Translations under genes and position numbers: made by a program
Part shown: piece by piece, positions 7,860-25,992 of the stretch
Numbering within the stretch: position 1 is the stretch's first letter
Layout of the letters: each line of letters starts with the position of its first letter
IMG/VR virus record: IMGVR_UViG_3300042879_001442
Coordinates: 1-25,992 of that record
From: a virus
Strand: one strand, 5' to 3'
DNA: 25,992 bases
The notes under the pieces: generated by a model
Databases searched by the model: none
What the model was told of the DNA's origin: nothing
What the model saw: the letters and a program-made list of their open reading frames with translations, nothing else

Positions 7860-7867
7860 TATATTTG
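7860..7867 (+). promoter_or_regulatory. Bacteroidota -7 promoter element for the tail genes
   Basis: TATATTTG matches TAnnTTTG and is followed by CAACAT, then the ATG at 7875. Only 7 nt lie between the element and the start codon, so the mRNA would have almost no leader. No TTG was found at 17-23 nt upstream; the terminator stem occupies that space. The 14-nt string TATATTTGCAACAT is identical at 25640 and, on the minus strand, at 18073-18060. Confidence 0.7.
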
Positions 7868-7874
7868 CAACATC

Positions 7875-8198
7875 ATGGAAATTAAACTAAAAGATAAGAT
7901 TTACCCGATGACCTTCAACATGAACAGCCTAAAGGCAATCATGGCAGACGCAGGGATGGAAACGTTTGCAGAATTGCAATTTAGCGGCGACCTATTAAAG
8001 CAGCTAGATTTTGGATTATTGTGCGCGTTTCATGGAATTAATGAGGCGGCAGAATGTAACGGGCAGCCTAAGCCGTTTTTATTATTGGCGGATATTGGCA
8101 GACAGGTGCAGCGATTTACGGACTTGCTTCCAGCAATAAGCGCATTTAGTGAAAGCGCGAGCGAATTTTTTAAATCGGACGAAGCCGGGGGAAAGTAA
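7875..8198 (+). CDS. Tail assembly chaperone, gpG-like
   Basis: A 107-aa protein (MEIKLKDKIYPMTFNMNSLK...), mostly helical after a short beta N-terminus. In long-tailed phages, a short chaperone G and its frameshifted extension G-T always lie between the tail tube and tape measure genes and coat the tape measure during assembly. This gene is in that position and ends with an in-frame G GGA AAG slippery heptamer (8189-8195) one codon before its TAA (8196-8198). The start is ATG 7875 just after a TATATTTG promoter. The function is inferred from position, size and frameshift signal rather than from strong sequence similarity. Confidence 0.78.
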   Translation: MEIKLKDKIYPMTFNMNSLKAIMADAGMETFAELQFSGDLLKQLDFGLLCAFHGINEAAECNGQPKPFLLLADIGRQVQRFTDLLPAISAFSESASEFFKSDEAGGK

Positions 8199-13248: not shown

Positions 13249-13256
13249 TATATTTG
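13249..13256 (+). promoter_or_regulatory. Bacteroidota -7 promoter element for the fibre and lysis genes
   Basis: TATATTTG matches TAnnTTTG and ends 5 nt before the ATG at 13262. It lies in a short AT-rich gap (13220-13261). The nearest upstream TTG is about 26 nt away, longer than the usual 17-23 spacer, so strength is uncertain. Confidence 0.6.
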
Positions 13257-13261
13257 AAATT

Positions 13262-13543
13262 ATGAGCAATCCTAGTGCAGATATCGCCGTTGGCGGTCAA
13301 GGTTTTAAATATCACGGCGCAGAAACCGTAACCAATGTTACATACGATTCATTAGTTGTACATGTTGACTGCGTTTTTACTTCTTTTACTGTAAAAGGGA
13401 ATAACGAAGCAAGTGGCACTAACGTATTAACTGCGCGCGGCCTTTCTGGAATAACAATAAAAGCAGGTACATTCTTACCAGCAGGTAAGGGGTTTGAAAT
13501 TACCGGATTTGTAATATCTTCAGGATCTGTAATAGCTTATTAA
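13262..13543 (+). CDS. Small beta-rich virion-type protein
   Basis: A 93-aa protein; I chose ATG 13262 because it follows a TATATTTG element, while the open frame upstream is only the promoter region. It has Gly-rich beta strands, with VDCVFTSFTVKGNN, the stretch ITIKAGTFLPAGKGFEITGF and a final SSGSVIAY. A similar short pattern ('G..i.ag....g.f..i...sGsviaY') is found in small proteins located between tail and fibre genes of Bacteroidota phages. It may be a trimeric adaptor or a fibre-associated protein. The function is not established from sequence. The fibre gene starts 1 nt after its stop. Confidence 0.65.
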   Translation: MSNPSADIAVGGQGFKYHGAETVTNVTYDSLVVHVDCVFTSFTVKGNNEASGTNVLTARGLSGITIKAGTFLPAGKGFEITGFVISSGSVIAY

Positions 13544-15654: not shown

Positions 15655-16240
15655 GGTAGAGGCAGCCGTTAAACGGTTGGGTTATAAATGGTTCGAGAAT
15701 GGCGACTACAACGTTAATATTGTAGGCATACGCAACAGCGACACGGGCAGCAAGGTGACTAACCTATTTGACGACTGGATAACAGTCAGCTGGAAAGAGC
15801 AGAGCAAGTGGTGCTATCAAATATTTTCGGCTACCACTGAACCAGGGAAAAAAGGAATGCTTGAAGGTAAGGCCAAAGGAGGCGTTTTTATTTTAAAAGA
15901 AGGGCAGTATCGCGGATCACACGAAATCGGTTTGCACCAGGGGAAATATAAAGCGCTCAGGCAATGCGGCGCGCTTCGTGGTTACCGCGACGGCGATAGG
16001 GACATGGAGTTTGATTTGGTGCAAGAGCAGGAAGTTTGGAACGCTGGCGTTAATATTCATAAGGCAGGCAAAAACAGCACCTACGTAGAGAATTGGAGCG
16101 AAGGCTGTCAAGTGTTTAAAATCGAGCAGGATTTCAACGAGTTTATGAAAATAATAGAAAAAGCGGCCACGATTTACGGCGACCGCTTCACGTACACTCT
16201 TATAGGAAGTAAGGATATTACTTTTTTACCGCTTCCGTAA
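15632..16240 (+). CDS. Probable peptidoglycan-active lysis protein with an H...SxGC motif
   Basis: A 202-aa soluble protein at the end of the late operon. The motif GVNIHKAG...WSEGCQVF (His143, Ser156, Gly158, Cys159) resembles the H...S-x-G-C active site of YkuD-type L,D-transpeptidases, with Cys159 as possible nucleophile. A second His (GLHQGKYKAL, H102) lies upstream. I see no signal peptide, so export would need a holin; two small membrane proteins directly before it could serve. No other endolysin (lysozyme, amidase, CHAP) is visible in the window. Therefore this is the best endolysin candidate, but the enzymatic class is inference. It ends convergently, overlapping the leftward operon by 23 nt. 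Confidence 0.65.
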   Translation: MRTPRRSEVEAAVKRLGYKWFENGDYNVNIVGIRNSDTGSKVTNLFDDWITVSWKEQSKWCYQIFSATTEPGKKGMLEGKAKGGVFILKEGQYRGSHEIGLHQGKYKALRQCGALRGYRDGDRDMEFDLVQEQEVWNAGVNIHKAGKNSTYVENWSEGCQVFKIEQDFNEFMKIIEKAATIYGDRFTYTLIGSKDITFLPLP

Positions 16241-16796
16241 GCTTTGCAATTCCTTCGGGTTTCTCGGTTACGTCTTGAATTTCCTCAACGGCGTGCATAC
16301 CCATCATAATATCGGGCGCGTATAAGCGGCCAAAGAAAGCGGCGGCACGATAGCGCAGCATAAGTTCGGGCATGGTTTGCCATTTACTACCTTGCTTAGT
16401 TAACCACCCTTCGGCCTTCGCCATATCCAGCGTAACCGTTGGACCTTCCAACAGTTCGCCCGTGGCTTTCTCCGTGGCGTATGCTTGGCACGCTGTGGCG
16501 GTGGCCTTAAATTTTAAGGCAGTGAATCGGCCCGAGCTGTTAAGCGCCGCAATAATAAACGCAGACGACCACGAGGGGCGGCCTTGGATAATGTGGAGAT
16601 TCTGCATAACCATTAAAGGACTAGCGCCTATCCTGTGCGCCATTTCCAAAGCTACAAGTGTATTAGGGATGTTGTTTTGGTAATCCTTGGGGATCATAGT
16701 AGAGGCTGATAGGGCCTTGGCAACGCGTTGCGCGTGTTCAAATGATTGTAGGCTGAAAGTTTCAGCGGTTTCTGTGGTTGTTATTTCGGTTGTCAT
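16218..16796 (-). CDS. RecT-like single-strand annealing protein
   Basis: A 192-aa protein, start ATG 16796 (a start 7 codons upstream overlaps the preceding gene and is less likely). It reads IPKDYQNNIPNTLVALEMAH, IGASPLMVMQNLHIIQGRPS, a C-terminal KWQTMPELMLRYRAAAFFGR and VEEIQDV. The order (helical start, 'GRPSWSS' strand, 'MPELMLRYRAA..F.R...P' helix, then E..D) parallels RecT/Red-beta-like proteins, which anneal complementary single strands. Its partner, a RecE-like exonuclease, lies in the same operon, which supports the call. It is shorter than classical RecT (~270 aa). A divergent or unrelated DNA-binding role remains possible. Confidence 0.6.
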   Translation of the reverse strand: MTTEITTTETAETFSLQSFEHAQRVAKALSASTMIPKDYQNNIPNTLVALEMAHRIGASPLMVMQNLHIIQGRPSWSSAFIIAALNSSGRFTALKFKATATACQAYATEKATGELLEGPTVTLDMAKAEGWLTKQGSKWQTMPELMLRYRAAAFFGRLYAPDIMMGMHAVEEIQDVTEKPEGIAKLTEAVKK

Positions 16797-16800
16797 AATG

Positions 16801-16986
16801 TTAAAATTTATTTTCAAGAGGCGTTTTTTTCTTTAATTCTTTTAAATAGTTTATTATCCTATCAATTTGCCAATGCCCAAGTTTAGAATTTTTATCGTAA
16901 CTGCTTAAAGTAAATTCTGTATAACCATTGTCAATTTTATATTTGACTGATATTAATTCGTTAATTTCATTTCTTTCGGTTGTCAT
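16801..16986 (-). CDS. Small protein of unknown function between exonuclease and annealing protein
   Basis: A 61-aa, AT-rich gene. The protein MTTERNEINELISVKYKIDN... has a beta-type N-terminal half and a helical, Lys-rich C-terminal half, and no recognised motif. The first 14 nt around its start codon are identical to those at the start of the annealing protein gene. Its composition differs from both neighbours. It looks like an insertion between the two recombination genes that reused the existing start region. Function unknown. Confidence 0.6.
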   Translation of the reverse strand: MTTERNEINELISVKYKIDNGYTEFTLSSYDKNSKLGHWQIDRIINYLKELKKKTPLENKF

Positions 16987-16987
16987 A

Positions 16988-17728
16988 TTATTTAAGTTTC
17001 AATTCCATTATTTCGCCGCTGAATTGCGGCCAGTTATTAGCTTCATTGCAGGCTTTCCACAGCTCCACGTCTTGCAGATATTCCTCGCGGCCGCGTTGGA
17101 TATCCATTTCATTTATGTAATACACGCCCACCATGTACGGCGGTGTTTTCTCTATTGCTATAAATATAAATGCCTGACATTCGGGAAACGCGTCGCAGTA
17201 CATAGCGGCCTGTACATGATAACGGTATTTTTTAACCGAGTATGCGAACGCGTTGGGGCTTGCGTCGTCTGTGGTTTTCAAGTCTACAATAAAACCGCTG
17301 TTTGTTATCAGGTCCGCAATGCCTTTATAATTTACCCCGTCTGATTCCCAAAGTAGTTCTTTTTCGCGCTCGCCTTCCGATAGCAGTAAGTGACCGGCGT
17401 AGCTGTGCGCCATTAAAGCGCGGTGCATATTCTCGATCTGCGCGTCCTGCTCTTTGGTTAGGATTTCGTGCCCGCGTAGGCTGTTAATAAAGTAATTATA
17501 CAACTCTTTGCCTTCTTTAATTCGGCGGTCGATATTAGGCGGTAGTATTGCGTAGCGCTGGCCGTAGTGTTCAGGTTCTAACACGCGGCAGTGTAGAGCC
17601 TTGCCCATAGTAAGCGCCGCTGTCGGTTCAGGTTGTACGTATTGGCCGCTGAGGTATTTCCACCAATACAAATAAGGGCTGCGGTGGATAAGGTCAAGCC
17701 GCGATTTAGATAGGTAATTTGTTTGCAT
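16988..17728 (-). CDS. ExoVIII/RecE-like PD-(D/E)XK exonuclease
   Basis: A 246-aa nuclease that would resect double-stranded ends to give the 3' single strands used by the annealing protein. The fold's marks are clear: SKSRLDLIHRSPYLYWW at the N-terminus, MGKALHCRVLEPE with His46, GIADL with Asp139, FIVDLKTTDD with Asp149 and Lys151, and YHVQAAMYCD with Gln173. This matches the exodeoxyribonuclease 8 / PD-(D/E)XK type (DUF3799-like). Length fits the isolated nuclease domain of RecE. It overlaps the upstream gene by 23 nt and ends 1 nt before the small gene. Confidence 0.85.
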   Translation of the reverse strand: MQTNYLSKSRLDLIHRSPYLYWWKYLSGQYVQPEPTAALTMGKALHCRVLEPEHYGQRYAILPPNIDRRIKEGKELYNYFINSLRGHEILTKEQDAQIENMHRALMAHSYAGHLLLSEGEREKELLWESDGVNYKGIADLITNSGFIVDLKTTDDASPNAFAYSVKKYRYHVQAAMYCDAFPECQAFIFIAIEKTPPYMVGVYYINEMDIQRGREEYLQDVELWKACNEANNWPQFSGEIMELKLK

Positions 17729-18056
17729 TATATAATTTTTGATAACAGGTTTCGCCGTCTAGGAAATAATCATTTTCGTCGCGTCCGTATTCGTACATAG
17801 TTAGGAAGTGTTCGTATTCCTCCACAATAGCCTCTAGCGCTAATGCCGTAACTGGGTGCAGTTCGCCCAATTGCTCGCGTGCAAATTCGTAAACGTCCAT
17901 CATGGGGGTATTTAGCCGCGTATCGTCAAGCTCGCGAGCGTATGCCTCGGCTAGTGGTTTACTATCATAGCAGCCGCGTCGGATTCCGTTTTTCCAAACG
18001 CACCAACGCCACCCTTGGGGTAATTTTGTACGGGTAATAATTGATTTTTCGGACAT
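17706..18056 (-). CDS. First gene of the leftward operon, unknown function
   Basis: A 116-aa protein starting at ATG 18056, nine nt after a TATATTTG promoter element (18073-18066, minus strand). The N-terminal MSEKSIITRTKLPQGWRWCV followed by WKNGIRRGCYDSKPLAEAYA looks like a small beta-hairpin plus helix, as in compact DNA-binding or integrase arm-type domains. The C-terminal half is acidic and helical (EAIVEEYEHFLTMYEYGRDENDYF). I do not recognise the family. Being the first, nearly leaderless gene opposite the Cro-like gene suggests an early regulatory or recombination accessory role (inference). Confidence 0.65.
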   Translation of the reverse strand: MSEKSIITRTKLPQGWRWCVWKNGIRRGCYDSKPLAEAYARELDDTRLNTPMMDVYEFAREQLGELHPVTALALEAIVEEYEHFLTMYEYGRDENDYFLDGETCYQKLYNANKLPI

Positions 18057-18062
18057 AATATG

Positions 18063-18095
18063 TTGCAAATATAGAACAAAATACTATCTTTGCAA
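18063..18095. promoter_or_regulatory. Symmetric overlapping divergent promoters PL/PR
   Basis: Rightward: TTG 18063-18065, 19-nt spacer, TATCTTTG 18085-18092, then ATG 18097. Leftward: TTG as complement of 18093-18095, 19-nt spacer, TATATTTG as complement of 18066-18073, then ATG 18056. The two halves form a 12-bp inverted repeat with one mismatch (18063-18074 and 18084-18095). Each promoter's -33 TTG lies just beyond the other's -7 element, so the polymerases would compete for one site. Both are close to the known Bacteroidota TTG/TAnnTTTG consensus with 17-23 nt spacing. Confidence 0.8.
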
Positions 18096-18096
18096 T

Positions 18097-18264
18097 ATGT
18101 TTTTACAAGAATTAAAAAATAAAGCAGCGAAAAAAGGGCGAACGTTAAGTAGCATTTGCGACGAATTAGGCATACACCGCAGCGTGATAGCGCGTTGGGA
18201 AAAGGAAGCGCCGAAGTCAATTAAAATTTATCAAAGATTACAGCAAGCTATTGAGAGGTTATGA
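18097..18264 (+). CDS. Small Cro/XRE-like helix-turn-helix regulator
   Basis: A 55-aa protein from ATG 18097 to TGA 18262-18264. It contains a clear helix-turn-helix of XRE/Cro type: TLSSICDELGIHRSVIARWE at residues 16-35, followed by a helix rich in Gln and Arg (KIYQRLQQAIERL). The ATG is 4 nt after the -7 element of the rightward promoter, so the mRNA is probably leaderless. The stop overlaps the helicase ATG as ATGA. As the first gene of the rightward early operon it fits a Cro-like role, likely binding the TTGCAA-containing sites at this promoter pair and at 20009-20024 (inference). I see no second repressor gene of CI type. Confidence 0.82.
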   Translation: MFLQELKNKAAKKGRTLSSICDELGIHRSVIARWEKEAPKSIKIYQRLQQAIERL

Positions 18265-19616
18265 ACCTACGCCCGTACCAAGCCCAAGCCGTTGACGACA
18301 TACGCGCGGCGTTTAAATCTCACAAACGGGTATTATATCAATTGCCTACAGGTGGTGGCAAGACAGTTATATTTTGCCACATAACTAGGGAAGCGGTGCG
18401 GAAAGGTAAATCGGTTTTAATATTAGTACACAGGCAGGAACTGCTGAGGCAGACAACGGCCAAGTTATCACAATGGGGCGTACCTTGGGAAACTATCGAG
18501 GCAGGCAAACCGACCTTAAACGAGTGGCCTGTATCTGTGGCAATGGTGCAGACAGCAGCGCGGCGCGAGCTTACAAAATACGATCTAATTATCTGCGACG
18601 AAGCCCACCACGTTGTCGCTGGAAGTTGGGCAGGTATAATTGAGAAACAGCCGCAGGCTTATTTGCTTGGCGTTACAGCGACTCCGTGTCGCATGGATGG
18701 CAAAGGATTAAAAGACGCCTTCGATGTGCTGTTAGAAGGCGTTAAAATGCGTCAACTTATTACGGACGGATTCCTGTGCGAGCCTAAAATATATGCCGCG
18801 AGTGTGGCCGACCTTACAGGCGTGCGCTTAGTGGGTGGCGATTACAACCGTGGGGATTTGGAAACGGCTTTACTGAAATCAAGGATAACAGGCGACGCCG
18901 TGCGCGAATACCAACAGCATGCCGACGGATTACCTGCAATAGTTTTCTGCGTATCTGTGCAGCACGCACAGGCCACAGCTCAGGCGTTTACCAATGCCGG
19001 TTATCGCAGCGCGGCCGTGGACGGAAGCATGGACGACAGCGAGCGGAAGCGTTTAATAAATGGCCTAACCGATGGAAGCATCCAGGTACTAACAAGCTGC
19101 GACATAGTAAGCGAAGGCACCGACATTCCTGCAGTGGCAGCGGCGATATTATTGCGGCCGACAAAATCGGAAGCGCTGTATTTGCAGCAAGTGGGCAGAG
19201 CGTTGCGGCCGATGGATGGTAAACAGCACGCCGTTATATTAGATCACGCGGGAAATGTATTTCGCCATGGTATGCCGACAGCGGCACGCGAGTGGACGTT
19301 GGAAGGCCGCGATAAACAGGCAAGGCAGAAAACAGCGGAGGCGGTTAGGCAATGCAAACTGTGCTACGCTGTACACCAAGCGGCTGTTTGCCCTGAATGC
19401 GGAGCGCCTGCGCCGTTAAAACCAAGGCAGCTGAAAAAAGTTGCAGGGCAATTGGTTCCGGTGGAGGATGTAGAGCGCGTAAAACGTGAGGCGAAAGTTG
19501 AAGTTTGGGGCGCGCGGTCGCTGGAGGAACTCAAGGCGATAGCGTTCCGCCGTGGGTATAAGCCCGGGTGGGCTTACCACCGTTGGCAGATGTATAATAG
19601 AAAATCGGTAAATTAG
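18261..19616 (+). CDS. SF2 DEAH-box helicase with C-terminal zinc ribbon
   Basis: A 451-aa helicase of the ResIII / DEAD-like superfamily 2. Motifs: Q-like LRPYQAQAV (3-11), Walker A LPTGGGKT (28-35), DEAH (113-116), VTATP (138-142), motif V SEGTDIP (284-290) and motif VI QQVGRALRP (309-317). After the helicase core, CKLC...CPEC (Cys365, 368, 377, 380) forms a zinc ribbon. The final 30 residues carry a YKPGWAYHRWQMY element commonly seen at the end of phage helicases of this type. Likely acts in DNA replication or recombination of the phage. It is coupled by ATGA to the Cro-like gene. Confidence 0.92.
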   Translation: MNLRPYQAQAVDDIRAAFKSHKRVLYQLPTGGGKTVIFCHITREAVRKGKSVLILVHRQELLRQTTAKLSQWGVPWETIEAGKPTLNEWPVSVAMVQTAARRELTKYDLIICDEAHHVVAGSWAGIIEKQPQAYLLGVTATPCRMDGKGLKDAFDVLLEGVKMRQLITDGFLCEPKIYAASVADLTGVRLVGGDYNRGDLETALLKSRITGDAVREYQQHADGLPAIVFCVSVQHAQATAQAFTNAGYRSAAVDGSMDDSERKRLINGLTDGSIQVLTSCDIVSEGTDIPAVAAAILLRPTKSEALYLQQVGRALRPMDGKQHAVILDHAGNVFRHGMPTAAREWTLEGRDKQARQKTAEAVRQCKLCYAVHQAAVCPECGAPAPLKPRQLKKVAGQLVPVEDVERVKREAKVEVWGARSLEELKAIAFRRGYKPGWAYHRWQMYNRKSVN

Positions 19617-19620
19617 CGCA

Positions 19621-19995
19621 ATGGAGCGCGGTAAATTTAGGGCTGAGCCGTTGGAAGCGCCAACAAACGAAACAAGCCTTATGCGGCAGATTATGCTTGC
19701 AGTTAGCAAAATTACAGGCGTTCGGATATTCCGAAATAATACAGGGTTTGACGCGACGAATAAAGTCCGTTACGGATTAATCCAAGGCAGCAGCGATTTA
19801 ATAGGATGGAAATCGGTAACCGTTACCCCTGATATGGTAGGGCAACAGGTGGCTGTGTTTGTTGCGCTGGAGGTTAAGACGCCGAAAGGCCGCGCCACTG
19901 ATGAGCAGAAAAATTTTGTTAATGTGGTAAATGCCGCAGGAGGCAAGGCTGCCATAGTGCGCTCCGTGAGCGAAGGGATTCGTGTATTGTCATAG
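19621..19995 (+). CDS. VRR-NUC domain nuclease
   Basis: A 124-aa single-domain nuclease of the VRR-NUC (PD-(D/E)XK) type. The catalytic pattern is intact: YGLIQGSSDLIGW (Asp59), ALEVKTPKGR (Glu84 and Lys86) and DEQKNFV (Gln96), then AAGGKAAIVRS. Free-standing VRR-NUC proteins are frequent in phages next to helicases and are proposed Holliday-junction or flap nucleases. Here it follows the SF2 helicase by 4 nt, so the two may work together on branched DNA. Confidence 0.88.
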   Translation: MERGKFRAEPLEAPTNETSLMRQIMLAVSKITGVRIFRNNTGFDATNKVRYGLIQGSSDLIGWKSVTVTPDMVGQQVAVFVALEVKTPKGRATDEQKNFVNVVNAAGGKAAIVRSVSEGIRVLS

Positions 19996-20084: not shown

Positions 20085-20297
20085 ATGCTACCAATCGAAT
20101 TTTTGATTTTGTACCCCATCAGCATCCCAGTGGCATTTTTGATGCACAAGCTGTGGAAGAAATTAACGCGCCGCGTGGAAATCGTAGAGGCGCAGCCGTA
20201 TCAGTTTGAGCGCGACGCTTATGTGGAAGGTTTTAACGATGCTACCGAGCATTGGAAACAGGAAGTTAAACGCATGTACAGAGGGGGGCAGTTATGA
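20085..20297 (+). CDS. Small membrane-anchored protein of unknown function
   Basis: A 70-aa protein with an N-terminal hydrophobic segment (residues 2-20, PIEFLILYPISIPVAFLM) followed by a basic stretch KKLTRR and a helical cytoplasmic part. It ends MYRGGQL, and the codons for GG lie in a run of six G that can act as ribosome binding site for the next gene. The same tail ends the cysteine-rich gene at 21039. Stop overlaps the next ATG (ATGA). Function unknown. Confidence 0.65.
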   Translation: MLPIEFLILYPISIPVAFLMHKLWKKLTRRVEIVEAQPYQFERDAYVEGFNDATEHWKQEVKRMYRGGQL

Positions 20298-20302
20298 GCA
20301 AC
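20274..20302 (+). repeat. 29-nt direct repeat, copy 1
   Basis: Identical to 21016-21044. It spans the end of one gene (MYRGGQL stop) and the first codons of the next (MSN), including the GGGGGG ribosome-binding stretch. Confidence 0.9.
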
Positions 20303-20503
20303 GAAACACAACAAACAATAGTTCAGTGGATTAGACACCAAATAAAACAACAAGGTGTTAGTCATTATTTTACAACAAGGGAAATACTTGATAGAGCCGA
20401 ACAAATGGAAAATGAGCAACGTAAAAAAATATGGGACGAAGCATTAAAATCAGTTGAAAAAAAATTAGAATTATTAAAAGAAATCTACGGAGGTAACAAA
20501 TGA
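20294..20503 (+). CDS. Small helical protein of unknown function
   Basis: A 69-aa, AT-rich gene. The protein (MSNETQQTIVQWIRHQIKQQ...) is almost entirely helical and charged, with a conserved-looking FTTREILDRAEQMENEQ segment. It ends IYGGNK, encoded so that GGAGGT (20489-20494) forms a Shine-Dalgarno site for the next gene at 20500. No enzyme motif visible. It belongs to the block of swappable small genes between the VRR-NUC and HTH genes. Confidence 0.65.
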   Translation: MSNETQQTIVQWIRHQIKQQGVSHYFTTREILDRAEQMENEQRKKIWDEALKSVEKKLELLKEIYGGNK

Positions 20504-21039
20504 ATAAAAAAACACAACAAATAGACGGTTATTGGGTAATTGGCTCAAATAAATGGAATGCGTCCATTTACACCCAAGAGCAAGCCGAGAAGTATTCAAA
20601 AACTTTAATTAATTGCCAAAACTGTATCAATTGCAGTTCTTGCAGTGATTGCAGTTATTGCCGTTCTTGCAGTGATTGCAGTTCTTGCCGTTCTTGCAGT
20701 TCTTGCAGTGATTGCAGTTATTGCCGTTCTTGCAGTTCTTGCAGTGATTGCAGTTATTGCCGTTCTTGCAGTTCTTGCAGTGATTGCAGTTATTGCCGTT
20801 CTTGCAGTGATTTTAAAACAAATCCACAACGCATAACATCCTCATTTTTAGGTAGCAGAAATTCACAAACAACTTATTACTGGGATGATAAACGCGAACA
20901 AATTATCTGCGGTTGTTTTAAAGGCACTTTAGAAGAATTTGAGGAAAAAGTCAAAATAACTCACGGAGATAATGACTTTGCAAAAGGATATTTTAAATGG
21001 ATTGAATTAGTTAGAATGTACAGAGGGGGGCAGTTATGA
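20500..21039 (+). CDS. Cysteine-triplet repeat protein with CGCF-GTLEEFE C-terminal domain
   Basis: A 179-aa protein in three parts. Residues 1-38 contain YWVIGSNKWNASIYTQEQAE. Residues 39-102 hold 22 cysteines spaced exactly every third residue (C-S-S, C-S-D, C-S-Y, C-R-S units). The C-terminal part has YYWDDKREQIICGCFKGTLE, then EFEEKV, a sequence I recall from other phage and plasmid proteins that carry cysteine-rich repeats. The regular CxxC ladder suggests metal or Fe-S binding or a solenoid, but function is unknown. The gene ends with the MYRGGQL tail and 29-nt repeat copy 2. The start follows a clear GGAGGT site. Confidence 0.75.
   Translation: MNKKTQQIDGYWVIGSNKWNASIYTQEQAEKYSKTLINCQNCINCSSCSDCSYCRSCSDCSSCRSCSSCSDCSYCRSCSSCSDCSYCRSCSSCSDCSYCRSCSDFKTNPQRITSSFLGSRNSQTTYYWDDKREQIICGCFKGTLEEFEEKVKITHGDNDFAKGYFKWIELVRMYRGGQL
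20632..20811 (+). repeat. In-frame 9-nt / 36-nt tandem repeat encoding the cysteine ladder
   Basis: Twenty consecutive 9-nt units of type TGC(A/C)GTNNT. Four of them (ending TCT, GAT, TAT, TCT) make a 36-nt higher-order unit, found perfectly at 20632-20667, 20695-20730, 20731-20766 and 20767-20802, with a 27-nt partial unit at 20668-20694. Reading-frame-preserving units suggest growth by slippage or recombination. Confidence 0.95.
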
Positions 21040-21044
21040 GCAAC
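21016..21044 (+). repeat. 29-nt direct repeat, copy 2
   Basis: Identical to 20274-20302; again at a gene junction, spanning the MYRGGQL tail and the next start codon. Confidence 0.9.
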
Positions 21045-21290
21045 AATAAACAAAGTATTACATCGTCAGATAAATTAGAACAACTTATTAATAAGTTTGA
21101 TGACTACGGATTAGTACACATTACTGAAGTAAGAAAAATTTCTGTTGAATTTGCAAATTTTGAAGCCAAAAAACTAATAGATTACATTGCAAAATCTATT
21201 GATGAAGAGTTAGAAAAAGATTTTATTGATGGTGATTTTATTAAATCTATTTATTTAAACTACTTAAAACAAAAATATGAGCAACAATAA
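21036..21290 (+). CDS. Small protein of unknown function
   Basis: An 84-aa, AT-rich gene. The protein begins MSNNKQS and is mainly helical with many Lys, Asp and Glu (KLEQLINKF, EAKKLIDYIAKSIDEELEKD). No motif recognised. The first 23 nt of the gene (21036-21058) are repeated exactly at the start of the next gene (21277-21299), which overlaps its 3' end by 14 nt. Confidence 0.6.
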   Translation: MSNNKQSITSSDKLEQLINKFDDYGLVHITEVRKISVEFANFEAKKLIDYIAKSIDEELEKDFIDGDFIKSIYLNYLKQKYEQQ

Positions 21291-21549
21291 ACAAAGTATG
21301 AAACTATACACTAAAGAAGACTTTTTAAAAGCCGCTGAATTTTGCGAAGTGTCAATGATAGATGCGAAATATATAATTGAACGCATTGATGAAGTAAGCG
21401 ACCCCATCGAACTACCAAGTGATGAGGAGATAGAGAATATGGGCAAAGATGTAATTGTTTACAACGATACCAAGCGTGGTTGGTTTGTAGAGGGATTAAG
21501 GTTTATGCGTGATAAAATCCAAGGAGGTAACAATGAGCAACCAAAGTAG
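21277..21549 (+). CDS. Small protein of unknown function, same start sequence as its neighbour
   Basis: A 90-aa protein starting MSNNKQS like the previous one, then YTKEDFLKAAEFCEVSMIDA and EVSDPIELPSDEEIE, and a WFVEGLRFMRDKIQGG end. The 'Y(T/S)KEDxxKA...LPSDEEIE...F..G..WMRD' style is frequent in small proteins of Bacteroidota phages, but no function is known to me. The tail after GG (NNEQPK) looks like read-through of the usual 'GGNK-stop' because one A is missing relative to the other junctions. Confidence 0.6.
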   Translation: MSNNKQSMKLYTKEDFLKAAEFCEVSMIDAKYIIERIDEVSDPIELPSDEEIENMGKDVIVYNDTKRGWFVEGLRFMRDKIQGGNNEQPK

Positions 21550-22337: not shown

Positions 22338-22503
22338 GAGAGTTATAGCCAGTTTGGCTGCCGTGTATCTGGCATTCGCGTTTATATTTGGAAATATAAA
22401 TTCGCAGCAATGGAGCGAAGCCGGGCGTTTTGCATGCGTGGTGACGTTTTGCGTATCATTTGTAATTATTTTAATACTTGACGATGATAGTTCTAAGCGA
22501 TAA
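22327..22503 (+). CDS. Small two-span membrane protein
   Basis: A 58-aa protein from ATG 22327 to TAA 22501-22503: MLTKRVIASLAAVYLAFAFI..., one membrane segment at residues 5-22, a short polar loop (NINSQQWSEAGR), a second at 36-51 (FACVVTFCVSFVIILI), and an acidic tail DDDSSKR. It overlaps the previous gene by 11 nt and the next by 20 nt, which supports its reality. Paired with the preceding coiled-coil membrane protein, it may form a small membrane complex. Function unknown. Confidence 0.65.
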   Translation: MLTKRVIASLAAVYLAFAFIFGNINSQQWSEAGRFACVVTFCVSFVIILILDDDSSKR

Positions 22504-22912
22504 CGGCGACCGCATCGACGTCATGGTTAACGACCAATGGTTTGCCAGCTTCAAAGATTGGCCGCAAGCCATACACTACCAGCACTACCTTAAGCACGGC
22601 GGTTTGGGGACTGAATTGGACAGATTGGGGCAAATTGTTTCCAATATCTATGGCCATAGCCCAGAGCGTTTAAAATCAAAATCTAAACTTTCCGATTTAT
22701 GCGAAGCGCGTGTAGTGTTTTCGTTAATCGCTCGTTACGATTTAGAAAAAACGTTTAAAACCATTGGCGCTTGGATGAAGCGCGACCATTCAACGATTAT
22801 GCACCATTTTAAAACCTATCACGATTGGCTTGCAATGCCGAATTATTACGGGAAGCAGCTGGAACGTTACGAGGCCTGTTTAAAAGTTTGGAAGGGTACG
22901 GGAAATGAGTAA
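22484..22912 (+). CDS. DnaA domain IV-like DNA-binding protein
   Basis: A 142-aa protein with start ATG 22484 (a TTG two codons earlier is less likely). The N-terminal 60 residues include VMVNDQWFASFKDWPQAIHY, a small beta unit. Residues 72-115 read DLCEARVVFSLIARYD, then IGAWMKRDHSTIMHHFKTYH, closely resembling domain IV of the replication initiator DnaA, including the DHST(I/V) signature of the DNA-recognition helix. No ATPase domain is present. It could recognise the phage origin, for example the AAGTTACCC iterons after the primase gene (inference), or act as a competitor of host DnaA. Confidence 0.8.
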   Translation: MIVLSDNGDRIDVMVNDQWFASFKDWPQAIHYQHYLKHGGLGTELDRLGQIVSNIYGHSPERLKSKSKLSDLCEARVVFSLIARYDLEKTFKTIGAWMKRDHSTIMHHFKTYHDWLAMPNYYGKQLERYEACLKVWKGTGNE

Positions 22913-23208: not shown

Positions 23209-25338
23209 ATGAAAGTATCATTTTACCCAAAAATTACAAACAGCGACAGTCGCGAGATTGCCGAAATTACAACGTTATTAGAAAACATTAAAAACGGCGT
23301 TTATCAAGATTATATATATCCAGTAAGAAACGCCAAAACTGATGATGACAAAAAAATTGCTAAAAGCAATGCGCCTAATTTTACTACTTCAGGCACATTC
23401 ACAAAGCGCGGAAACAATAATTTAATTGAACATAGCGGTTTAATTGCTATTGATTTTGATCATGTCAAAGATTATGGCGATGCTTTTAATATGCTGATAA
23501 ATGATAATTACAGTTTTGCAGTTTTTTCAAGTATTTCTGGGGATGGCATTTGCTGTATTGTAAAAATTGACGGTAAAAGACATTTAGACGCTTTTGAGGG
23601 ATTGCAAAAATACTATTATGATAAATATGGTTTAATATTAGATATAGCTTGCAAGGATGTTAGCAGACCGCGTTTTATTAGTTGGGATCCAGATTTATAT
23701 TTAAACGAAAAAAGCGATGTTTTTCGTAGCTACATAAAAAAAGAAACAAAGCAACAAATAAAAAGATTTCAAGAATTTTCAAAAACTGACGATTTTTTAA
23801 TTCATAATCAAAGTAAGTTTGAAATGGTTTTAAATCGGATAAATTTTGATATTACAGACGATTATGTAATATGGCGAAATATAGGTTTTGCAATTGCTTC
23901 GGAATATGGCGAAGCTGGTTTTGACTATTTTAATCAAATAAGTCAGTTTAGCCCAAAATACGATTATAATACATGTCGTAAGCAATACGAAAACGGCCTA
24001 AAAAAAGATAACGGTCAAAAAATAGGCATAGGCACATTTTATAAAATTTGCAAAGAGTTTGGAATAGACATAAGTGATCCGAGAATTAAACAAACCCGCG
24101 AAATAGCCCAAAAATATAAATCAATAGGCAAAACGCTCAAAGAGGCCATTGCAGAAAATCCCGAAATTATCGAATCGGTTGCCGCTCAAGAATTTGAGAA
24201 AAAGGAATTGCCAGCGATTAGCCGCCATTTTGATATTGACGCATTCGAGGAATGGCTGCGCTCGAATTTCCCAATTAAGAAAAACGAAATAACGCGGTTT
24301 TATGAGCTGAACGGAAAGCAGTTAGAACAGGCCGATTTAAACACGATTTATATTGATGGCAAAAAGCTGTTTCCAAAGTTGTCAAAGGACATTTGCGAAT
24401 CGGTTATATTCAGCAATTATACACCGTCATACAATCCAATTAAAGATTATTTGGAAGGCTTGAAATGGGATGGGAAGGATTATATCAATGATTTGGCCGA
24501 GTGTATTAATTCCAATACCGGAGATTTAGAGTATAGGCGCTATTTGCTTGGTTCGTGGCTGTTGGGTATTGTTGAGAGCCTGTTAGACGAAAAACCAAAT
24601 ATATTGTGCCTTATTTTGGCGGGTAAACAGAACACGGGGAAATCTACCTTTTTTACCAAATTGCTTCCAAAGGAGCTAAATAGGTATTTTGCAACGTCGC
24701 AGCTGGATAGGGGCAAGGATGACGAAATATTGATGTGTCAATCAATAATTATTTTCGACGACGAATTTAGCGGAAAATCCAAGCAGGATGCCAAGCACAT
24801 GAAGCGCATGCTGTCTGCTCCGTCGTTTACATTGCGTGAGCCATACGGGCGGCAAAACGTAACGCTTAAACGTATAGCGACGCTGTGCGGCACATGTAAC
24901 GAATTGGACGTTTTAAACGATCCTACAGGAAATAGGCGGTTTATTGTTTTTGAGGTTGCAGGGCAATTTGATTATGAGCTTTATAACAGCGTTAACAAAT
25001 CCCAGTTATTTGCCCAGCTGATGTCTTACCGTGCCGAAGGTATTACTTCGAATATTGGCTCGGAAATGTTGGATAAAATGCAGCAGAATAGTGAGGCATT
25101 TGTTGAGGTAAATATTGAGCATGAATTAGTTGAGCATTTTTTTAGCCCTACGGAGCTGCCATATAGTAAATTAGTATTCATGCAAGCAGCGTTAATAAAA
25201 ACGCATATAGAGGACGTAACTAAGCAAAAATTAGGCTCAAAAAGGTTATCGCAAGCATTAATTAGCATCGGATGCCGTAAAACAAAACGCGGCGGCGTTC
25301 AAGGTTATTTAGTTGCATTTAAGCAAATGCAGTCATAA
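23209..25338 (+). CDS. Primase-helicase: BT4734-like AEP primase, PriCT-2, VirE-type helicase
   Basis: A 709-aa replication protein. Residues 1-175 form an archaeo-eukaryotic-type primase domain of BT4734/BF3469 type: LIAIDFDHV (Asp82, Asp84), SSISGDGICCIVKI (107-120) and SRPRFISWDPD (152-162). Residues about 203-290 look like a PriCT-2 linker (WRNIGFAIASEYGEAGFDYF). Residues about 400-610 form the virulence-associated E (VirE) SF3-like helicase: Walker A AGKQNTGKST (471-480), Walker B IIIFDDEF (513-520) and the DPTGNRRFIVFEV arginine-finger region (571-583). It likely starts and drives phage DNA replication. The first half is more AT-rich than the second, suggesting a fused or recombined origin. 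It has its own promoter and a structured leader. Confidence 0.93.
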   Translation: MKVSFYPKITNSDSREIAEITTLLENIKNGVYQDYIYPVRNAKTDDDKKIAKSNAPNFTTSGTFTKRGNNNLIEHSGLIAIDFDHVKDYGDAFNMLINDNYSFAVFSSISGDGICCIVKIDGKRHLDAFEGLQKYYYDKYGLILDIACKDVSRPRFISWDPDLYLNEKSDVFRSYIKKETKQQIKRFQEFSKTDDFLIHNQSKFEMVLNRINFDITDDYVIWRNIGFAIASEYGEAGFDYFNQISQFSPKYDYNTCRKQYENGLKKDNGQKIGIGTFYKICKEFGIDISDPRIKQTREIAQKYKSIGKTLKEAIAENPEIIESVAAQEFEKKELPAISRHFDIDAFEEWLRSNFPIKKNEITRFYELNGKQLEQADLNTIYIDGKKLFPKLSKDICESVIFSNYTPSYNPIKDYLEGLKWDGKDYINDLAECINSNTGDLEYRRYLLGSWLLGIVESLLDEKPNILCLILAGKQNTGKSTFFTKLLPKELNRYFATSQLDRGKDDEILMCQSIIIFDDEFSGKSKQDAKHMKRMLSAPSFTLREPYGRQNVTLKRIATLCGTCNELDVLNDPTGNRRFIVFEVAGQFDYELYNSVNKSQLFAQLMSYRAEGITSNIGSEMLDKMQQNSEAFVEVNIEHELVEHFFSPTELPYSKLVFMQAALIKTHIEDVTKQKLGSKRLSQALISIGCRKTKRGGVQGYLVAFKQMQS

Positions 25339-25621: not shown

Positions 25622-25647
25622 TATTGTTGATTAGTGTATTATATTTG
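25615..25647 (+). promoter_or_regulatory. Promoter of the HNH-terminase-head transcript
   Basis: TTG (25615-25617), 22-nt spacer, TATATTTG (25640-25647), then CAAC and the ATG at 25652, so the transcript is probably leaderless. It overlaps the last iteron block's ATTGATTA. If the genome is circular, this promoter drives genes through the tail tube to terminator 7833-7855. Confidence 0.75.
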
Positions 25648-25651
25648 CAAC

Positions 25652-25992
25652 ATGCCAACCATTAACAAACGGGCTAAGCAGTCGCCACAACGTGACAACA
25701 ACGACCACCAAGGCCGCAACTATTACCATTCAGGGTATCAGACCAAGCAATGGAGAGCAATGCGCCGAGCTATATTGCAGGCTTCGCCTTTATGTGTTGA
25801 ATGTGGTAAGCTTGGCCGTGTGACTGTAGCTAATGTCATAGATCACATAAAGCCAGTTCGACTGGGTGGTGAGTTTTGGGAACAGAGCAATATGCAACCG
25901 CTGTGCGTGAGTTGTCATAACAGTAAATCCGCGAAGGAAAGGCATGGCAACCCGGTAGGGGGTGAAAAATATGCACACGAAGGCGACAAAAC
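25652..25992 (+). CDS. HNH endonuclease, 3' end cut by the window edge
   Basis: From ATG 25652 the frame stays open to the last base (113 codons plus 2 nt). HNH fold: CVEC (Cys48, Cys51), VIDHIKPVRLGGEF (Asp64, His65), NMQPLCVSCHNSKSAKER (Asn80, Cys85, Cys88, His89, Asn90). Phage HNH proteins of this kind lie beside the terminase and help cut or package DNA, often at cos ends. The gene continues in frame from base 1 to TGA 44-46 if the window is circular, giving 128 aa and an ATGA overlap with TerS. The ATG lies 4 nt after a TATATTTG element. Confidence 0.9.
   Translation, partial: MPTINKRAKQSPQRDNNDHQGRNYYHSGYQTKQWRAMRRAILQASPLCVECGKLGRVTVANVIDHIKPVRLGGEFWEQSNMQPLCVSCHNSKSAKERHGNPVGGEKYAHEGDK

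Follow-up and report, generated by a model that had tools for sequence, protein, structure and literature searches.

The window, meaning the whole stretch of DNA analysed, spans 25,992 bases and is an entire IMG/VR virus record of a small freshwater phage whose host is presumably a Bacteroidota. From position 1 to ~15 kb it encodes the small and large terminase subunits, portal, prohead protease, HK97-type capsid and tail. Further along, two blocks of genes diverge from a single 33-bp site (Table 1): a leftward block with an ORF of ~116 aa counted from its ATG, an exonuclease VIII-like gene, a 61-aa ORF and a RecT-like gene, and a rightward block with a 55-aa HTH gene, a helicase, VRR-NUC, small ORFs, a DnaA-C-like gene, a primase-helicase and HNH. 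The Pfam and PHROG assignments of these genes hold, such that the division into a recombination and a replication operon, as described in a first-pass annotation of this DNA, is borne out. The first leftward gene has homologues at the same position in 10 of 10 relatives, at 35-97% identity.

Other features of the record were also observed. The window and the contig of one relative (L008), which are independent, end at homologous bases just past the HNH gene (...GGCGACAAAAC and ...GACGGCAAAAC, respectively) with no terminal repeat. This is likely a fixed, cos-type genome end, and because both contigs stop at homologous bases, near-complete linear genomes are suggested. Among the small rightward ORFs, that at 20500-21039 (179 aa) carries many CxxC-type repeats (CSSCSDCSYCRSC...) and belongs to no Pfam family; it and the ORF at 20085-20297 both end in RMYRGGQL, and the ORFs starting at 21036 and 21277 both open with MSNNKQS. 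These common ends (20085-21300) suggest recent cassette duplication or shuffling.

Table 1. Features at and around the divergence point, in window coordinates.
Feature	Position	Strand	Details
Candidate interlocked bidirectional promoter, imperfect 33-bp inverted repeat TTGCAAATATAGAACAAAATACTATCTTTGCAA	18063..18095	both	
Rightward -33 TTG	18063..18065	+	spacer 19
Rightward -7 box TATCTTTG	18085..18092	+	predicted start site 18097-18098
Leftward -33 TTG	18093..18095	-	spacer 19
Leftward -7 box TATATTTG	18066..18073	-	predicted start site 18060-18061
First leftward gene, no assigned function	17706..18056	-	ATG 18056; ORF reaches 18068 with a TTG start
Exonuclease VIII (RecE)-like, DUF3799/PDDEXK	16988..17728	-	PHROG 412, E 5e-73
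61-aa ORF between exonuclease and RecT-like genes	16801..16986	-	
RecT-like annealing protein	16218..16796	-	PHROG 561, E 2e-77
55-aa Cro/CI-type HTH gene (fold from model), first rightward	18097..18264	+	stop overlaps helicase ATG
DEAD/DEAH-type DNA helicase	18261..19616	+	PHROG 16, E 4e-101
VRR-NUC nuclease	19621..19995	+	domain match
DnaA C-terminal-domain-like protein	22478..22912	+	E 3e-11
BT4734/PriCT-2/VapE-type primase-helicase	23209..25338	+	domain and PHROG matches

Sequence and geometry of the divergence point

Direct reading of the site confirmed two opposed TTG-N19-TAnnTTTG promoters in a 33-bp inverted repeat, whose 12-bp arms (TTGCAAATATAG and TTGCAAAGATAG) match at 11 of 12 positions with 9 bp between them; a default-seed inverted-repeat search reported none because the arms carry a mismatch. 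Sigma-70 promoter scans are uninformative for Bacteroidota, and under the criteria for the primary sigma factor of this phylum (sigma-ABfr; -7 box TAnnTTTG, TTG or TTTG near -33, start 4-5 nt past the box) both strands gave exact matches with a spacer of 19 and predicted start sites. The rightward TTG contacts the minus-strand -7 box at 18065|18066 and the leftward TTG contacts the plus-strand box at 18092|18093, as had been claimed, and the core elements of the two divergent promoters thereby overlap in the geometry that characterizes bidirectional promoters. Because each -33 element abuts the opposite -7 box, mutual exclusion would be expected, and the geometry thus supports the suggestion that a single polymerase could bind at a time.

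The AUG lies 5 nt from the -7 box rightward and 10 nt leftward, with CAAT and then ATG 18097 following TATCTTTG on the plus strand, and CAACATATT and then ATG 18056 following TATATTTG on the minus strand. In Flavobacterium johnsoniae transcription mostly begins 4-5 nt past the -7 box and leaders exceed 10 nt in 87% of cases (PMC6847099), and this spacing rule predicts leaders of 0 nt rightward and 4-5 nt leftward, which fits the earlier description of both transcripts as nearly leaderless. Leaders shorter than 10 nt make up 3.7% in B. thetaiotaomicron (PMC7366714), and 5.5% of mRNAs are leaderless in F. psychrophilum (PMC9723704). The leftward genes begin 4-10 nt past the box in the window and in relatives L005, L006 and L007-L011. 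Elsewhere in the window, three further TATATTTG boxes (7860-7875, 13249-13262 and 25640-25652) stand 5-8 nt before ATGs at 7875, 13262 and 25652, with CAAC following two of the three, and because three other genes share this closeness of box and ATG, the phage seems unusually fond of leaderless-type starts.

Single TTG-N18-20-TAnnTTTG matches number three in the window versus 2.06 expected in shuffles (P = 0.32), a chance-level count that makes the motif on its own uninformative. The interlocked layout appeared in 0 of 1000 dinucleotide shuffles, and its analytic expectation is ~1e-6 per spacing, or ~3e-6 by chance in the window. Beyond the promoter-fixed bases, three of seven free pairs match, approximately the chance level for AT-rich DNA, and we rejected the idea that additional dyad symmetry marks an operator. 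Since the -33/-7 pairs dictate most of the arm bases, the palindrome is best read as the footprint of two promoters and is not in itself operator evidence. The interior of the site has no second copy in the window, its 19-mer being unique at up to 3 mismatches.

Conservation among relatives and the HTH protein

Six close relatives (L002-L006 and L010), with helicases 95-98% identical, carry 0-1 changes in the 33 bp (0 to 0.03 per site), and their HTH genes each differ from that of the window by 5-14 bases, all synonymous (0.16-0.44 per synonymous site). Promoter conservation to this degree has, under neutrality, a probability of 0.026 in L004, 0.0003 in L002 and <1e-6 in the other close relatives. 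Judging by these substitutions, the 55-aa gene is real and under purifying selection, because the differences are all synonymous. The promoter is also intact in L002, L003, L004 and L010, where the left neighbour is replaced by a tRNA-like element right up to it. The HTH stop overlaps the helicase start (ATGA; window 18255-18265) in the window, L003 and L010, and ~180-340 additional bases lie exactly at the HTH/helicase junction in L002, L004, L005 and L006.

A second clade (L007, L008, L009 and L011; helicase 71-75% and HTH 61-63% identical) has the site GTTGCAATATTAAAATAAATGTTTTAGATTTGCAAC, in which the TTGCAA...TTGCAA ends and the geometry are kept at a spacer of 20, the rightward promoter is full and both near-leaderless starts persist. 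Its leftward -7 box, TAATATTG, matches at 7/8 with one consensus T missed, and for this reason the leftward arm may be weaker in this clade, or else differently regulated. Flavobacterium phage FCV-3 was tried as a comparator and rejected; the 10 kb around its RecT match holds no comparable divergent site because the annotated genes there are all co-oriented.

Against Pfam HTH_3 the HTH protein scored 21.7 bits (E 2e-4), below the cut-off of 23; a sequence search of solved structures returned no match, and tblastn for homologues in phages gave weak XRE-like matches only. Its AlphaFold model (pLDDT 81) has four helices in the four-to-five-helix lambda-repressor-like fold that defines Cro/CI (XRE) proteins. 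Structural comparison of this model by VIA-align matched prophage Lp1 protein 11 (3b7h; Z 7.2, 1.7 A, 54 aligned), SinR (Z 6.1) and the 434 repressor and Cro (Z 5.9 and 5.5), values of Z below 8 being common among small helical proteins, and almost all top-ranking matches were Cro/CI-type HTH domains. Foldseek E-values exceeded 0.1 because the protein is tiny. The model and its structural matches point to a Cro/CI-type fold, as expected from the naming of this first rightward gene as Cro-like, and a Cro role proper would mean that it represses, by binding, the two early promoters beside it. No sequence mark of an HTH operator is visible.

Chromosomal counterparts and the reading of the site

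Searching for the exact layout (TTGCAAAnnTA...TAnnTTTGCAA with 10-12 central bases) revealed 76 viral stretches and, in the genome collection, at least 117 stretches. Among the 80 of the latter that were listed, ~75 were Bacteroidota by title, 69 sites were 34 bp and nine were 33 bp long, and 58 were flanked on both sides, within 250 bp, by an ORF of 50 aa or more. When 2 to 32 central bases were allowed in 395 Bacteroidota genomes, 43 sites were found versus 4 for the reversed control, with 27 of the 43 being 33 or 34 bp (lengths from listed matches). Other -7 boxes upstream of ORFs at 75 genome loci had a TTG exactly 20 nt upstream in 19 of 94 cases, which argues that the -33 element is real and explains the preference for 34 bp. 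Relaxed -7/-7 pairs without the -33 context are not enriched at this sample size (16 divergent vs 15 convergent controls in 573 kb of Bacteroidota loci, source sites masked), and relaxed CAAAnnTA-N7-16-TAnnTTTGC sites in 99 genomes stood modestly above control among the matches listed.

These chromosomal sites (TTGCAAAnnTA-N11/12-TAnnTTTGCAA) share the phage layout and usually have divergent ORFs whose starts lie within ~20-60 nt to each side, but unlike the phage site they are mostly 34 bp long (spacer 20), have longer leaders and in some cases adjoin regulators that are not Cro-type, namely two HxlR-type and two MerR-type genes, Pfam-confirmed. As the layout recurs in Bacteroidota chromosomes, it presumably represents a compact two-way promoter and not a lambda-type lysogeny switch. 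We found nothing relevant on bidirectional promoters of Bacteroidota in the literature, and no prior description of the interlocked geometry in the literature searched, of which coverage was incomplete. We offer only as a tentative idea, which we would sooner doubt than assert, that interlocked 33/34-bp double promoters might form a phylum-wide Bacteroidota module enabled by a sigma factor with -33 (TTG) and -7 (TTTG) elements that join head to tail, and that the phage early switch might be one such module plus a near-leaderless 55-aa Cro-like protein. The interlocked layout suggests a second bidirectional-promoter geometry, one particular to the Bacteroidota type of sigma factor. Its simple signature can be tallied in genomes of every kind and examined in tractable Bacteroides or Flavobacterium strains, and for phages it would be a possible minimal early switch of ~200 bp.

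Bacterial bidirectional promoters have been studied by Warman, Grainger and colleagues, who describe one short symmetric element that yields RNA both ways, with opposing polymerases excluding each other, as common among mRNA-producing promoters; in E. coli a single symmetric -10 element serves both directions, and the starts lie 18 bp apart in most cases, with 10 and 23 bp also occurring (PMC12825309, PMC10268837). The phage site differs in comprising two complete interlocked -33/-7 promoters that fit the Bacteroidota type of sigma factor, and its predicted starts are 36-38 bp apart. The Pc/Pr conjugation switch of pLS20 likewise has divergent promoters that overlap, next to the transcriptional regulator RcoLS20, which represses the main promoter and adjusts the one from which it is itself expressed (PMC4207663), but that Gram-positive plasmid has several operators, DNA looping and unequal promoter strength, none of which were seen in the phage.

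On the sequence evidence, the 33-bp site is probably a bidirectional early promoter with mutual exclusion of RNA polymerases and probable feedback from the HTH protein. The primary, Bacteroidota-type sigma factor of the host would read the site both ways, the leftward arm driving the recombination operon and the rightward arm the HTH-helicase-primase operon, with both first messages beginning at, or a few bases before, the AUG if mapped spacing rules apply. A polymerase engaged in one direction would block the opposite one, and activating one arm would repress the other, as work on bidirectional promoters suggests (PMC12825309). With somewhat less support, the accumulated 55-aa Cro/CI-fold protein probably binds in or beside the site and damps one or both directions, and the circuit would then time lytic growth instead of deciding between lysis and lysogeny. 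Overlapping promoters are established to exclude a second polymerase in E. coli, but basal activity of the bidirectional promoters tested there was too low for polymerase competition, and for that reason exclusion may not matter in vivo (PMC12825309).

Rather less probable is that the site lacks a regulator of its own: the two operons would be set solely by how strong each promoter is and by competition between polymerases, and the target of the HTH protein would lie elsewhere, such as in replication or at host promoters. The lack of extra dyad symmetry and of a second interior copy agrees with this, as does the finding that competition alone accounts for most E. coli cases (PMC12825309), but the HTH gene comes first in its operon beside the site in both clades, and the HxlR and MerR genes at some chromosomal sites likewise place regulators next to the layout. 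It is improbable that the repeat is chiefly a regulator's operator with the rightward promoter alone active: the TTGCAA...TTGCAA arms are indeed what the second clade keeps best, its leftward -7 box being off consensus, but the arms are exactly the bases required by two -33/-7 pairs, the 27-28 bp between them is a large distance for a small Cro-type dimer, and the leftward genes stay close to the box in the window, L005, L006 and L007-L011.

More improbable still is that the phage is temperate and the site a genuine lysis-lysogeny switch of the lambda type. The proposed likeness to lambda PL/PR stood in part, with recombination genes running one way and a Cro-like HTH gene followed by replication genes the other. 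Lambda has tandem 17-bp operators at each promoter and the CI gene between its divergent early promoters, which stand apart, and neither defining feature was present in the phage: its promoters overlap and so leave no room for a repressor gene between them, and its site interior occurs once, so that the tandem operators of lambda OL/OR have no counterpart. Pfam showed no CI-like repressor domain in the record and no integrase among the scanned ORFs of the record, which is presumably complete or nearly so. Because integrase and repressor were not found and the window and L008 ends are homologous, as suits near-complete linear genomes, a lysogeny decision is unlikely, and together with the chromosomal recurrence this speaks against the lambda-type switch. 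Least probable of all is a chance overlap of AT-rich motifs, which could appeal to the chance frequency of single matches in the window but is refuted by the conservation of a layout that is itself so rare by chance.

A tRNA-like element family near the promoter

In L002, L003, L004 and L010, all four of them close relatives, the first feature downstream of the leftward promoter is the tRNA-like element (L003 5539-5664, minus strand), which is also present in L276 and L277 and, overall, in at least 120 viral contigs; we found no description of the family in the literature searched. Its ends are nearly invariant (TAGTCAGGTGGCGGAATGGTAGACGC ... ACAGGTTCGAnTCCTGTCCTGACTA), comprising an acceptor stem, a Leu-type D arm and a T arm, and a hypervariable interior of ~25-130 nt takes the place of the anticodon arm. 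The 84 interiors formed 69 clusters at 75% identity, and a 5-bp/7-nt anticodon stem occurred in two of the 84 versus 2.7 expected after shuffling. ARAGORN called 20 of 90 elements with inconsistent anticodons, and the Rfam tRNA model matched several with a large insert. One phage contig with tRNAs and two tRNA-like elements (L359) additionally carries a GOLLD RNA at 1293-1710 (Rfam RF02032, 262 bits).
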